From contig NZ_PEJS01000001.1 of assembly GCF_002750975.1 (NCBI RefSeq), forward strand, positions 1,178,001 through 1,242,000: a DNA stretch of 64,000 nucleotides, given 5' to 3'. Shown here one piece after another: positions 1,208 to 46,146 of the stretch. Position numbers and translations under genes: made by a program. The notes under the pieces were generated by a model. The model was given only the letters and a program-made list of their open reading frames with translations. It was not told where the DNA came from and made no database searches. Numbering within the stretch: position 1 is the stretch's first letter; each line of letters begins with the position of its first letter. The stretch comes from Stenotrophomonas indicatrix. GTDB taxonomy: Bacteria > Pseudomonadota > Gammaproteobacteria > Xanthomonadales > Xanthomonadaceae.

Positions 1208-2046
1208 GCCCGCGTAGCGCAAAGGGCCTCGGGCTGGGCGTGCTGCTGCTCGGCTTCGCCTTCCTGTACCTGCCGATCCTGTTGTTGATGTTCTATTCGT
1301 TCAACAGCTCGCGGTTGGCCATGGTCTGGGCCGGGTTCTCCACCCGTGCCTACAGCGACCTGTTTGCCGACCGCGCGCTGATGGATGCGATGTGGACCAG
1401 CCTGGTGGTCGCGTTCTGGACCGCCTGTACCGCCACCGTGCTCGGCACGCTGGCGGCGATGGTGATGACCCGCTTCAAGCGTTTCCGCGGCAAGCCGTTC
1501 TTCGGTGCGCTGGTGACCGCGCCGCTGGTGATGCCGGACGTGATCCTCGGCTTCTCGCTGATGGCGCTGCTGGCCTCGATGGGCGCGATACCGGGCTTCC
1601 CGGCGCGTGGCCTGGCCACCATCTGGATCGCCCATGTCACCTTCACCCTGTGCTTCGTCACCGTGGTGGTGTCCTCGCGCCTGCAGGAGATGGACCTGTC
1701 GCTGGAAGAAGCGGCGATGGATCTCGGCGCGAGCCGGCTGACCGTGTTCACCCGCATCACCCTGCCGATCATCGCCCCGGCGCTGGTGGCCGGTTGGCTG
1801 CTGGCGTTCACCCTGTCGCTGGATGACGTGGTGGTGGCCAGCTTCGTTGCCACGCCGGGCTCGACCACGCTGCCGATGAAGGTGTTCGCCTCGGTTCGCA
1901 TGGGCATCAGCCCGAAGATCAATGCGCTGGCCACGCTGCTGGTGTCTGCAGTGTCCATTGCTGCGGTGATCGGCTGGTACATCAATGCGCGTGCGGAGAA
2001 GCGACGCCAGCGCGACCTGCAGCTGGCCCGCCAGGACAACGGCTGA
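1204..2046 (+). CDS. potI: Putrescine/spermidine ABC transporter permease PotI
   Basis: A 280-residue second permease subunit of the polyamine importer, pairing with PotH. Hydrophobic segments alternate with polar loops. An EAA-type motif occurs near residue 168 (EEAAMDLGASRLTVF), followed by RITLPI as in PotH. Translation probably couples to potH through the ATGA overlap at 1204-1207. A 63-base gap separates it from the aldehyde dehydrogenase gene, which could be transcribed with it. Confidence 0.92.
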   Translation: MSPRSAKGLGLGVLLLGFAFLYLPILLLMFYSFNSSRLAMVWAGFSTRAYSDLFADRALMDAMWTSLVVAFWTACTATVLGTLAAMVMTRFKRFRGKPFFGALVTAPLVMPDVILGFSLMALLASMGAIPGFPARGLATIWIAHVTFTLCFVTVVVSSRLQEMDLSLEEAAMDLGASRLTVFTRITLPIIAPALVAGWLLAFTLSLDDVVVASFVATPGSTTLPMKVFASVRMGISPKINALATLLVSAVSIAAVIGWYINARAEKRRQRDLQLARQDNG

Positions 2047-6788: not shown

Positions 6789-7343
6789 TCAGTGACCGTC
6801 GGCCGCTGGGGCGGTGGCGGCCGGGCCCTCGTCCTCGGCCGGCAGGTCCAGGCTGTAGGTGCAGCCGGCCAGGGTCCTGCCCGGGTGACTGGCGACGGTG
6901 GATACGCTGAGGATGATCGACTCGATCTGCGCCTCCCCGGTCTTCGGGTCGGTCACATCGCGGCTGACCAGCTCGCGCCCGGCCATGAACTTGCCGTCCT
7001 GGTCGTAGCCGATCTCCAGGGCCAGCTGCTTGGCCAGCGGCCGCGGATCGGCCTGGTCGAGCACGGCCATGATGCTGGCGCCGGCCACGGCCACACGCTC
7101 GGTCTGCTGGCCGAACACGGTGATCGGGCTGGCCAGGCGGTACTCGCTCATGAACTGGTTGCCCTGCGGCAGCGGCTGCAGGCCATGCGCCACGGCCTTC
7201 AGCGGATCGGCCAGCAGCGGTGCCAGCGCGGCGTGCTCGGCGACGCCCTGGCGGCATTCGATCAGGGCAGGCAGGTCCAGTGGCGCGGCGGAAGCGGTTG
7301 GGGCGACGACCAGCAACATGGGCAGGAGACGCAGCGGTGACAT
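6789..7343 (-). CDS. Hypothetical exported protein
   Basis: A 184-residue protein that I do not recognise. The first 19 residues form a signal peptide ending in ASA before APLD. The rest is soluble, with three cysteines. The ATG at 7343 is chosen because the signal peptide starts there; the frame stays open upstream but that part reads like noncoding DNA. It lies between corC and another unknown gene on the same strand, with gaps of 64 and 79 bases, so it may be in the same transcript. Confidence 0.7.
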   Translation of the reverse strand: MSPLRLLPMLLVVAPTASAAPLDLPALIECRQGVAEHAALAPLLADPLKAVAHGLQPLPQGNQFMSEYRLASPITVFGQQTERVAVAGASIMAVLDQADPRPLAKQLALEIGYDQDGKFMAGRELVSRDVTDPKTGEAQIESIILSVSTVASHPGRTLAGCTYSLDLPAEDEGPAATAPAADGH

Positions 7344-43684: not shown

Positions 43685-43759
43685 GGGCGGTTAGCTCAGC
43701 GGTAGAGCACTACCTTGACATGGTAGGGGTCACAGGTTCGAACCCTGTACCGCCCACCA
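43685..43759 (+). tRNA. tRNA-Val (GAC), copy 1
   Basis: The acceptor stem is GGGCGGT/ACCGCCC, the anticodon stem CTACC/GGTAG with anticodon GAC, T loop TTCGAAC, discriminator A and encoded CCA. The 75 nt are identical to the copy at 43857. Confidence 0.96.
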
Positions 43760-43856: not shown

Positions 43857-43931
43857 GGGCGGTTAGCTCAGCGGTAGAGCACTACCTTGACATGGTAGGG
43901 GTCACAGGTTCGAACCCTGTACCGCCCACCA
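43857..43931 (+). tRNA. tRNA-Val (GAC), copy 2
   Basis: A 75-nt sequence identical to copy 1, including CCA. The 97-base spacer contains a terminator, and no good promoter is seen directly upstream. Confidence 0.96.
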
Positions 43932-44377: not shown

Positions 44378-44527
44378 GGCACGGTGCTCCGGAGAAGGGA
44401 GCCCAGCGTTGCACTGCGGCCTGCGCTGTGAAACCGGTATCCGACGAAGACCGGAAAAGTGCGCGCCAACCAGAGCCAGCAAGGATGAATCCGTGCCCGG
44501 CCGGGGCGGCGGCAGAACACGATAATG

Positions 44528-44564
44528 AAAAAGGGCCGGGCCACCCGTGAAGGCAGTCCGGCCC
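44528..44564 (-). terminator. Terminator of the four-cysteine peptide operon
   Basis: Read on the minus strand, the stem GGGCCGG/CCGGCCC is followed by five T. It lies about 75 bases after the stop of the last peptide gene. Confidence 0.65.
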
Positions 44565-44639
44565 GTTTGCCCGTAAGTGACCCCGTTGGCCGGGAAGCCT
44601 GGGCTCAGGTCACGACGTGGCTGGAACCATCAGGCGGGC

Positions 44640-44834
44640 TCAGAGCGGATCGCAGCACAGGCGAGGGCCGGACCAATGCCCTGAGCCGCCATACGGACAG
44701 CCCGGGGTGAATTCACAGCCCGGTGCGAACCCGGCCTTGGCCGGAGTGGCGAAGGCCTGCGCGGCACCGAATGACATGGCGGCCACCACGACGAGGCCGG
44801 CAATGGACGAGAACAGCTTCTTCTTTCCGATCAT
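44640..44834 (-). CDS. Small secreted four-cysteine peptide A
   Basis: A 64-residue peptide precursor. Residues 1-29 are a signal peptide (MIGKKKLFSSIAGLVVV.., ending AQAFA before TP). The mature part of about 35 residues has Cys40-x5-Cys46-x13-Cys60-Cys61 and is rich in Gly and Pro (FAPGC, GCPYGGSG, LCCDPL). The first 85 or so bases are nearly identical to those of peptide B, while the mature codons differ. AAGGAGATACAG before the ATG is also shared. It is the last of three tandem paralogues behind a thioredoxin-like gene. The function is unknown. Confidence 0.75.
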   Translation of the reverse strand: MIGKKKLFSSIAGLVVVAAMSFGAAQAFATPAKAGFAPGCEFTPGCPYGGSGHWSGPRLCCDPL

Positions 44835-44865
44835 CTGTATCTCCTTTGCAGCGCTTCGAGGCGGG

Positions 44866-45057
44866 TTACATGGGGTCGCAGCAGACCAGCAGGCCGTGGG
44901 AGCCTGCGTTGCCATAGGGGCAGCTCGGATGTTCCTTGCAGCCCGGCGCGAAGCCGGTCTTCACCGGAGTGGCGAAGGCCTGCGCGGCGCCGAATGACAT
45001 GGCGGCCACCACGACGAGGCCGGCAATGGACGAGAACAGCTTCTTCTTTCCGATCAT
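44866..45057 (-). CDS. Small secreted four-cysteine peptide B
   Basis: A 63-residue precursor with the same signal peptide as peptide A, residue for residue. The mature part reads TPVKTGFAPGC, then KEHPSC, PYGNAGSHGLLV and CCDPM: Cys40-x5-Cys46-x12-Cys59-Cys60. The ribosome binding site AAGGAGATACAC matches that of peptide C. It is 65 bases after peptide C and 31 bases before peptide A. Two disulfides are possible after export. Confidence 0.75.
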   Translation of the reverse strand: MIGKKKLFSSIAGLVVVAAMSFGAAQAFATPVKTGFAPGCKEHPSCPYGNAGSHGLLVCCDPM

Positions 45058-45122
45058 GTGTATCTCCTTGGAATGGCGATGGAACATGAAGTCACCGCGT
45101 GCGGGGCGGTGTCGAAGCGGGA

Positions 45123-45317
45123 TCAGTTGGCGACGCAGCAGATGCGCGTGCCGCCGGCGCGGCCATTGCCGCCGAACATGCATCCGGGGGTATCCACGCA
45201 ACCCGGTGCAAAGCCGGTCTTCACCGGTGTGGCGAAGGCCTGTGCGGCCCCGAATGACATTGCAGCAACGATGACGATACCGGCGACGGACGAGAACAGC
45301 GTTTTCTTCCCGATCAT
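45123..45317 (-). CDS. Small secreted four-cysteine peptide C
   Basis: A 64-residue precursor, the most divergent of the three. The signal peptide has Thr6, Val11, Ile14 and Ile16 where A and B have Lys, Ile, Leu and Val. The mature part TPVKTGFAPGC is followed by VDTPGCMFGG, NGRAGGTRI and CCVAN; the cysteine spacing is that of A. It starts 11 bases after the thioredoxin-like gene, with its ribosome binding site partly inside that gene's end, so it is probably co-translated with it. Confidence 0.75.
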   Translation of the reverse strand: MIGKKTLFSSVAGIVIVAAMSFGAAQAFATPVKTGFAPGCVDTPGCMFGGNGRAGGTRICCVAN

Positions 45318-45328
45318 GTGTATCTCCT

Positions 45329-45898
45329 TCAGTTGGTGTGGCTTCCCGGATTCATTGCGTTGGCGACGGCCTGCACCGTCCCGGTGTCGAGCTGGCCGAC
45401 ATGCTTGTAGGCGATGCTGCCATCTGCGGCCAGCACCATCAGCATCGGTGTCAGCGTGGCGCGGTAGCGCTTGGAGACTTCGCCCTGATCGTCGACGGCG
45501 ATCGGAAACGCCAGCGCGTGCTTGCCTGCGTAGTCGGCAAGCTGGTCGTACGGTGGCAGGCCCACGCCCACCAGCTCGGCACTGCCTCGCGCAGCCGCGA
45601 TCTGCTGCAGTTGTGGCACCGAGGCCAGGCAGTAACGGCAGGCGGTAGAGAAGAAGTAGAGGATCTGCGGCACGCCGCGCGCGCCACCGATATCGACATG
45701 GGTCTGCTGCGTCGTCCGCAGGGTCAACAGTTCAGGCCGGGTGCCGGTGGCAAGACCATGCGCGTCCAGCTGCGTCTGCTGCAGCTGCGCCGCCATCTGT
45801 TCGTTGACCTGCCGCAACTGGCGGTTCTGCCAGGAGAGCATGATGACCAGTGCGGCCAGCAGCAGGGCGACTACGGGAAACAGTGCACGCTTGAGCAT
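45329..45898 (-). CDS. Membrane-anchored thioredoxin-like (TlpA/redoxin) protein
   Basis: A 189-residue protein with one N-terminal membrane helix (7-24), a short coiled region, and a periplasmic thioredoxin fold. The redox motif is Cys87-Arg-Tyr-Cys90 in FFSTACRYCLASVPQ. The cis-Pro region is ATLTPMLMVLAADGSI. It could oxidise, reduce or reshuffle disulfides. Three small four-cysteine peptides follow it directly, so acting on them is the simplest guess. A TTGACA is present 48 to 60 bases upstream on the minus strand, with TATGGT 19 bases further. Confidence 0.85.
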   Translation of the reverse strand: MLKRALFPVVALLLAALVIMLSWQNRQLRQVNEQMAAQLQQTQLDAHGLATGTRPELLTLRTTQQTHVDIGGARGVPQILYFFSTACRYCLASVPQLQQIAAARGSAELVGVGLPPYDQLADYAGKHALAFPIAVDDQGEVSKRYRATLTPMLMVLAADGSIAYKHVGQLDTGTVQAVANAMNPGSHTN

Positions 45899-46005
45899 CG
45901 ATCATCCTTGAACGCCGCGTTGCATCGACCATACCGGAAACAGCAACAGGAATGTCAAGCTTTTGTATCATCGGTGACGCAGTTCCCAAACCTCAGGACG
46001 CCACC

Positions 46006-46146
46006 ATGAGTGACCATGCTCCCGTTTCCCGGCCTAACCCGATCATCGAACTGCTGTTCGGCGGCAACATGCTGGAAGGCACCTTCAAGGCCGTGATCTG
46101 GGTCGCACTGCTGTCTGCGGTGCTGGCCTGGACGACCTTCCGCTGA
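46006..46146 (+). CDS. Small single-helix membrane protein
   Basis: A 46-residue protein with a polar N-terminus (MSDHAPVSRPNPIIELLFGG) and a hydrophobic helix (FKAVIWVALLSAVLAWTTF). AGGA lies seven bases before the ATG. It is divergent from the thioredoxin-like gene. No function is known, and its short length makes the call less certain. Confidence 0.55.
   Translation: MSDHAPVSRPNPIIELLFGGNMLEGTFKAVIWVALLSAVLAWTTFR

Follow-up and report, generated by a model that had tools for sequence, protein, structure and literature searches.

MauD, the accessory redoxin of methylamine dehydrogenase, provides a precedent for a membrane-anchored thioredoxin-fold protein that is co-encoded with a small exported cysteine-rich client. 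Co-encoded peptides are, to our knowledge, no part of the ResA, StoA, DsbE (CcmG) or TlpA families, and, as far as we know, few cases of a redox partner dedicated to small exported peptides have been recognised in Gram-negative bacteria. The NVEALA-type leader peptides of Bacteroidetes are small exported cysteine peptides encoded in tandem, with a conserved box by the leader cut. Here we describe an operon encoding a membrane-anchored redoxin and three exported four-cysteine (4-Cys) peptides. It lies in a 64,000-nucleotide stretch of the Stenotrophomonas indicatrix genome (positions 1,178,001 to 1,242,000 of contig NZ_PEJS01000001.1), which we call the window.

The redoxin resembles ResA, StoA, DsbE (CcmG) and TlpA in its fold family, N-terminal anchor, CxxC motif and cis-proline, but scores far under every listed curated cut-off for these proteins. 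The same is true of MauD, and in contrast to the MauD system the window cassette lacks further mau genes and the clients are peptides of 23–47 amino acids. The peptides differ from the NVEALA type in having another box, in belonging to another phylum and in giving no Pfam match for those tested. The operon is presumed to be a single transcription unit, in the order redoxin, peptide C, peptide B, peptide A and a terminator-like hairpin. Its coding parts are as follows, the cleavage sites of the peptides being inferred.

45329..45898, minus strand: membrane-anchored TlpA/ResA-type redoxin, 189 amino acids; active site CRYC, cis-proline in TPM
45123..45317, minus strand: exported 4-Cys peptide C, 64 amino acids; leader 45231-45317, mature part 45126-45230 (presumed A-x-A cleavage site)
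44866..45057, minus strand: exported 4-Cys peptide B, 63 amino acids; leader 44971-45057, mature part 44869-44970
44640..44834, minus strand: exported 4-Cys peptide A, 64 amino acids; leader 44748-44834, mature part 44643-44747
44500..46005, no strand assigned: approximate extent of the cassette, which is present or absent as a single unit between conserved flanks

We favour the explanation, with a probability of about 0.6, that the exported peptides are clients of the redoxin, a thiol-disulfide oxidoreductase dedicated to them, and that the two form a self-contained two-component module. The redoxin would be an inner-membrane thioredoxin-fold oxidoreductase facing the periplasm. The peptides would be exported by the Sec route, on a leader ending in an F-[GA]-x-x-Q-[AV] box and A-x-A, and would then lose that leader. 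Their four cysteines (six in a sister class described below) would be presented to the redoxin, whose CxxC would make, correct or reset the peptide disulfides. We infer that the redoxin acts on the peptides as its substrates, forming or isomerising their disulfides and not reducing them, and that the peptides, once folded, function in the envelope or extracellularly.

Joint occurrence of the redoxin and the peptides

A search of 91 Stenotrophomonas genomes for the peptides gave matches in 26 genomes with a single peptide query and in 27 with a 20-row alignment. Places at E 0.0007–0.008 in G053, G003 (contig 23), G049 and G037 were left out of the count, giving 45 peptide genes in 25 of the 91 genomes. 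The only one of these left-out places to be inspected, L032 of G053, lies antisense to an apparent RND pump gene. With the redoxin as query, the identical 25 genomes were found at E ≤ 2e-40, the next match being at E 6.7e-15. The redoxin and the peptides are adjacent in all 25, with one to three peptides per set, so that the arrangement of the window, which a preliminary description of this DNA had given correctly, is more than a chance one and recurs wherever the peptides occur in the genus. The window's own assembly contains no further peptide copy in a whole-genome search, where the next four places had E values from 0.53 to 3.1. Nineteen of the 25 genomes have a 190-codon redoxin frame as in the window, and six have a redoxin of 228 or 229 codons with shorter peptides. 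These six share a different neighbouring frame, and in G008, the one seen in a wide view, the set lies at another chromosomal site.

Comparison of the flanks showed that the cassette behaves as a unit. Of 61 genomes searched, 32 gave a conserved flanking gene; the 30 loci retrieved comprise 13 with the cassette and 17 without. In 16 of the 17 lacking genomes the cassette of ∼1.5 kb is cleanly absent, no more than about 170 bp separating the flanks; in G022, which departs from this, the distance is about 515 bp. On a tree of the flanks (∼830 bp), the pattern of presence and absence needs six changes by parsimony, at least five of which are forced by well-supported branches; this tree represents a single locus, with a bootstrap that had not settled, long branches for G022 and G084 and a possible recombination signal. 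The unit that is present or absent holds only the redoxin and the peptides. Carriage on a mobile element was considered and rejected, as tblastn with P0003 gave no match among plasmids (72,556 records) or phages (50,697 records) and the GC content of the cassette is 0.639, compared with 0.66 for the window.

Beyond Stenotrophomonas, distant 4-Cys peptides were found in other genera when 395 genomes of the family were searched with an alignment. The 49 genomes listed are not a member count: rows above about E 1e-3 were mostly uninspected, and at L084, L086 and L090 inspection revealed no such peptide. A redoxin adjoins the peptides at L092–L096, where start and stop overlap in L092 and L096, and at L101, whose peptide is a variant. 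The L095 peptide (genome G356, 6999-7190, minus strand) is of the 4-Cys type with two extra cysteines (KCVNPDTGCPCKPGC), and its genome also has a second redoxin with a six-cysteine peptide. In both G356 and G269 there are two redoxins, each with a peptide of its own. When a 4-Cys profile was run against a protein database, 36 proteins were found at E ≤ 0.1, and all those with a named source are from Stenotrophomonas. The database rows P0031 and P0035–P0040, which are truncated or frame-shifted, were left out of the counts.

A search anchored on the redoxin, using its first 50 residues (result at least 35/297), led to a second peptide class with six cysteines (6-Cys) in the frame C-x2..5-C-x3-C-x11..17-C-x-CC. 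Such a peptide lies beside 18 of the 20 redoxins inspected, which were chosen from 36 places; the other two redoxins (L131 and L132, Luteimonas) have peptides elsewhere in the same genome. A scan of named genomes with a 6-Cys peptide gave 34 loci, consisting of 27 Xanthomonas records, four Luteimonas and three Lysobacterales assemblies, and the redoxin is just upstream in 32 of them. Scripted spacing among 87 distinct redoxins gave a 4-nucleotide overlap with the peptide start in seven and a 3-nucleotide gap in 29. This tally mixes loci found through the peptide with loci found through the redoxin, and its 83/87 with a peptide is biased upward, although two of the four without (L101 and L186) do have one of unusual frame or start. 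The less biased pairing counts are those of the whole-genus redoxin search and of the 20 redoxins chosen from 36 places. L100, L102, L129 and L130 have tandem sets of two or three differing 6-Cys peptides, which suggests local expansion.

An order-wide redoxin profile, run on 250 genomes and scoring no more than 13 candidates in each, gave E ≤ 2e-61 in 15 genomes, all from the window's family, and then E ≥ 1.5e-20 in 20, all from outside it. Spread of the system beyond the family was rejected after eight of the order-wide loci had been viewed: a peptide was present in the three inside the family and none was found by pattern in the five outside.

The redoxin–peptide pairing is thus well supported. 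The identity of the 25 genomes, the constant adjacency, the gain and loss of the cassette as a unit and the second subgroup at another site all speak for the client model, as do the finding of 6-Cys peptides by way of the redoxin, the frequency of the upstream redoxin in the named 6-Cys loci, the spacing of the redoxin and peptide genes, the two redoxins with separate peptides in G356 and G269, the presence of a subfamily redoxin in ten of the 11 genomes whose peptides stand apart from it, and the paired cysteine numbers. Cysteine number is even in the 92 peptides collected (four in 51, six in 41), with collecting patterns that favour evenness. The linkage on which the preliminary description had based its proposal that the redoxin processes the peptides therefore holds in related genomes, and extends to other genera.

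Several observations weigh against this explanation. Nine genomes labelled g16 and two Luteimonas genomes have peptides but no redoxin in the fetched stretch, which was mostly about 7 kb per side (about 1.5 kb in G330; 1.7 kb on one side in G203). In ten of these 11, a subfamily redoxin is encoded at another place in the genome (E ≤ 2e-67). The remaining one, G358 (L104; a g16 genome with completeness 100), encodes two 4-Cys peptides but gave no match to the subfamily redoxin at E ≤ 1e-16; the redoxin is therefore dispensable in some cases. Such loci, G358 foremost, are the main evidence against strict dependence, and they are what favours the view that the redoxin and the peptides are mere neighbours without a shared biochemical step. 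We consider that view very improbable, given the shared 25 of 91 genomes, the joint gain and loss and the recurrence of the pair with two mature classes. In addition, an odd number of mature cysteines occurs in the database proteins P0006 (five) and P0030 (three), one member sequence each. Structure prediction for the 4-Cys class gave a best model with a predicted local distance difference test (pLDDT) score of 73.5 and four others of 46.7–56.8, with no regular elements. Finally, redoxins of the TlpA/ResA type are often reductants, and the direction of the reaction may be the opposite of the one we favour.

Family assignment and the nature of the peptides

The window redoxin (P0004) matches Pfam Redoxin with E 2.1e-10 and 41 bits against a gathering cut-off of 26.6, and has an N-terminal hydrophobic anchor in addition to CRYC. 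Both active-site cysteines of CxxC and the cis-proline are invariant in 20/20 aligned members of the subfamily. Score, CxxC and cis-proline all place it in the Redoxin/AhpC-TSA Pfam superfamily. It falls outside the StoA (41.9 of 210 bits), ResA (37.4 of 170) and DsbE (31.8 of 123.15) equivalogs. MauD (TIGR02661) is the best NCBIfam match of the Xanthomonas-type redoxin of L117 (E 7.7e-9), but the cut-off of 188.6 bits is far above the scores of P0004 (20.7), the L125 redoxin (27.5) and the L117 redoxin (35.3). Judged from these profile scores, the redoxin is assigned to the broad Redoxin superfamily and outside every named equivalog that it resembles. Among proteins of solved structure, those closest to it in sequence are 3kcm (a thioredoxin family protein) and ResA.

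An added C-x-C (GVCxC) follows the CxxC in 41 of the 87 distinct redoxins of the fetched loci (L117–L122 and others). By script, 40 of the 41 lie beside 6-Cys peptides, and the last (L186) lies beside a 6-Cys frame without an ATG start. The feature occurs in 0/30 redoxins beside 4-Cys peptides and is absent also from 13 beside 6-Cys peptides. Because many GVCxC redoxins come from Xanthomonas, shared descent can explain this distribution.

The cysteine frame C-x5-C-x12/13-CC of A, B and C is as given in the preliminary description, whose failure to recognise any described system was likewise upheld. No curated Pfam or NCBIfam cut-off was reached by the window's three peptides, by a 20-member alignment including them or by 17 further peptides, the lowest sub-threshold match being to TIGR04429 (E 0.0026, 4/20 members of the alignment). 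Against sequences in the PDB the peptides had no relative (best E 0.92), and a search of open-licence PMC papers gave none that we recognised as describing the redoxin–peptide system.

For the 6-Cys class, a helix and two strands are predicted, with conserved aromatic and FGG/YGG turn residues, and the best structural neighbours of the model are cysteine-stabilised alpha-beta (CS-alpha-beta) proteins, namely scorpion toxins and plant defensins. This model weakly suggests a defensin-like miniprotein. As in the bacterial cis-defensins and CS-alpha-beta peptides of PMC11561630, a CxxxC lies in the predicted helix and a CxC in the predicted strand; both are present in 40/40 6-Cys peptides, though the search pattern itself demands them. 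PMC11561630 reports a gamma-core (GXC) cysteine, placed between the two strands, in all its bacterial sequences. In contrast, no cysteine lies between the third cysteine and C-x-CC in 40/40 6-Cys peptides, so that the gamma-core cysteine is lacking, and there is an extra C-terminal vicinal cysteine. The 4-Cys class, including the window's peptides, has neither CxxxC nor CxC. The terms Xanthomon-, Stenotrophomonas and Lysobacter do not occur in the main text of PMC11561630; a further scan of bacterial cysteine-stabilised helix peptides that it cites could include the 6-Cys class.

The chemistry of the peptides bears on two other explanations. If the redoxin kept the peptides reduced, they could serve as periplasmic carriers of a soft metal, for example Cu(I). 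The TlpA/ResA type of the redoxin, the paired cysteines, the vicinal CC of the collected peptides and the CxCC and CxxxC of the 6-Cys class are all compatible with this, and TlpA is known to keep copper-site proteins reduced. However, the aromatics, FGG/YGG turns and predicted helix and strands of the 6-Cys class fit a disulfide miniprotein better than a metallothionein-like chain, other ligands are few (on average 0.1 methionine and 0.15 histidine per mature 6-Cys peptide, and 0.2 and 0.8 per 4-Cys peptide) and the cassette holds no metal gene, making a metal-carrying role doubtful. Alternatively, the redoxin might mature secreted toxins, bacteriocins or host-directed peptides. This would suit the CS-alpha-beta-like models, the tandem paralogs with exchangeable leaders and the patchy distribution of the cassette across Stenotrophomonas. 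A class II bacteriocin or microcin system is not indicated, as the cassette stretch, to which the examination was confined, contains no export or immunity genes. The conservation of the peptides, the mostly acidic mature parts of the 6-Cys class and the absence of immunity genes from the cassette would speak for a housekeeping role in the envelope or outside the cell over killing, and we regard a toxin function as decidedly unlikely.

The client-peptide module that we favour is compact, recurrent (32/34 named 6-Cys loci) and unmatched in the family libraries searched. It is also experimentally tractable, as it involves two genes, makes a clear chemical prediction and offers a natural presence/absence series within a single genus. 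Work on it would show whether defensin-like scaffolds can have a housekeeping envelope role in bacteria, and it is a natural candidate foldase–substrate pair for the production of disulfide peptides.

Evolution of the leader and mature parts

In the 29-codon leader, 28 codons are identical between A and B and the remaining one differs synonymously, in agreement with the near-identity previously noted. The leader of C differs from those of A and B by eight synonymous and four non-synonymous codon differences. Between A and B, the synonymous divergence (dS) is 0.05 in the leader versus 1.26 in the mature part, so that one of the two genes probably received its leader from the other, in line with the gene conversion suggested earlier. 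A mosaic gene at L010 (G019, 1501-1689, minus strand) has a C-type leader on a B-type mature part, as recombination between tandem leaders predicts. For peptide A of G000 and G080, the last 28 residues are identical while the leaders differ at 9/29 residues.

The preliminary description had also suggested fast change of the mature part under diversifying selection, for which we find no support. Among orthologs within each mature type, the non-synonymous divergence (dN) of the mature part is 0.00–0.18 and dS reaches 1.84, the highest ratio being about 0.3; the stretches are only 34–35 codons long and single values are rough. Comparison of the window's paralogs with one another gave mature dN/dS values of about 0.26 (A–B), 0.19 (A–C) and 0.85 (B–C), never above 1. 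As the orthologs show, the mature types, which are common to several species, are under purifying selection. A, B and C diverged as paralogs long ago, and their divergence looks sudden because the leaders were homogenised; the set looks like a stable group of paralogs rather than the product of an arms race.

Immediately ahead of the presumed cleavage site, 38/40 6-Cys preproteins carry the F-[GA]-x-x-Q-[AV] box (40/40 in a loose form). The count for 4-Cys leaders, 50/52, is circular, as the collecting pattern already required part of the box. As background, 92 signal-like N-termini were taken by a crude rule from 464 called genes; the loose box was found in nine, four of which belong to the peptide family, and by eye none of the other five has the strict box. 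Whole preproteins of the 4-Cys and 6-Cys classes align with an hhalign probability of 97.6%, whereas homology of their mature parts was not detectable (0.5%). It is possible, and we propose it tentatively, that these peptides form an unnamed disulfide-miniprotein superfamily of the Xanthomonadaceae, with one shared leader on at least two unrelated mature scaffolds (4-Cys and defensin-like 6-Cys), each matured by a dedicated inner-membrane redoxin, and with leader conversion and leader–mature recombination in a venom-peptide-like mode of evolution.

Operon signals and neighbouring genes

Three further features of the operon were located.

44526..44565, minus strand: presumed intrinsic terminator at the operon end; GC-rich hairpin followed by TTTTT
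45093..45111, minus strand: weak terminator-like stem in the gap between peptides C and B; not above chance expectation
45899..45990, minus strand: redoxin upstream region; conserved GTTCAAGGATGATC-ATG start region and TT[GA]ACA ... GGTATG stretch

From the redoxin to A, successive genes are separated by 11, 65 and 31 bases, and all three peptide genes share the start stretch AAGGAGATACA[C/G]ATG. The hairpin and T run after A have a folding energy of −28 kcal/mol for a 71-nucleotide stretch (z −2.57), and 3/200 shuffles were equally good. The peptides had been described as following the redoxin without a terminator. This stands loosely: one weak stem does exist between C and B, so the wording is not strictly correct, but the terminator scan gave this single find (45111-45093) against a shuffled mean of 1.4. 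Upstream of the redoxin, the TT[GA]ACA ... GGTATG stretch may be its promoter. Among the 15 of 19 group-I loci that were extracted for the upstream alignment, it is not kept in L058; a sigma-70 scan gave no match.

Divergent from the redoxin is an open reading frame for a hydrophobic protein of 46 amino acids (46008-46146, plus strand). Its DNA is conserved next to the cassette site in many genomes, both cassette-bearing and cassette-free, with the exceptions of G064, G065 and G013. Between uvrB and the peptide operon lie tandem tRNA-Val (gac) genes (43685-43759 and 43857-43931, plus strand), which match each other at 100% over 76 bases, and this stretch is conserved at cassette-empty sites too.
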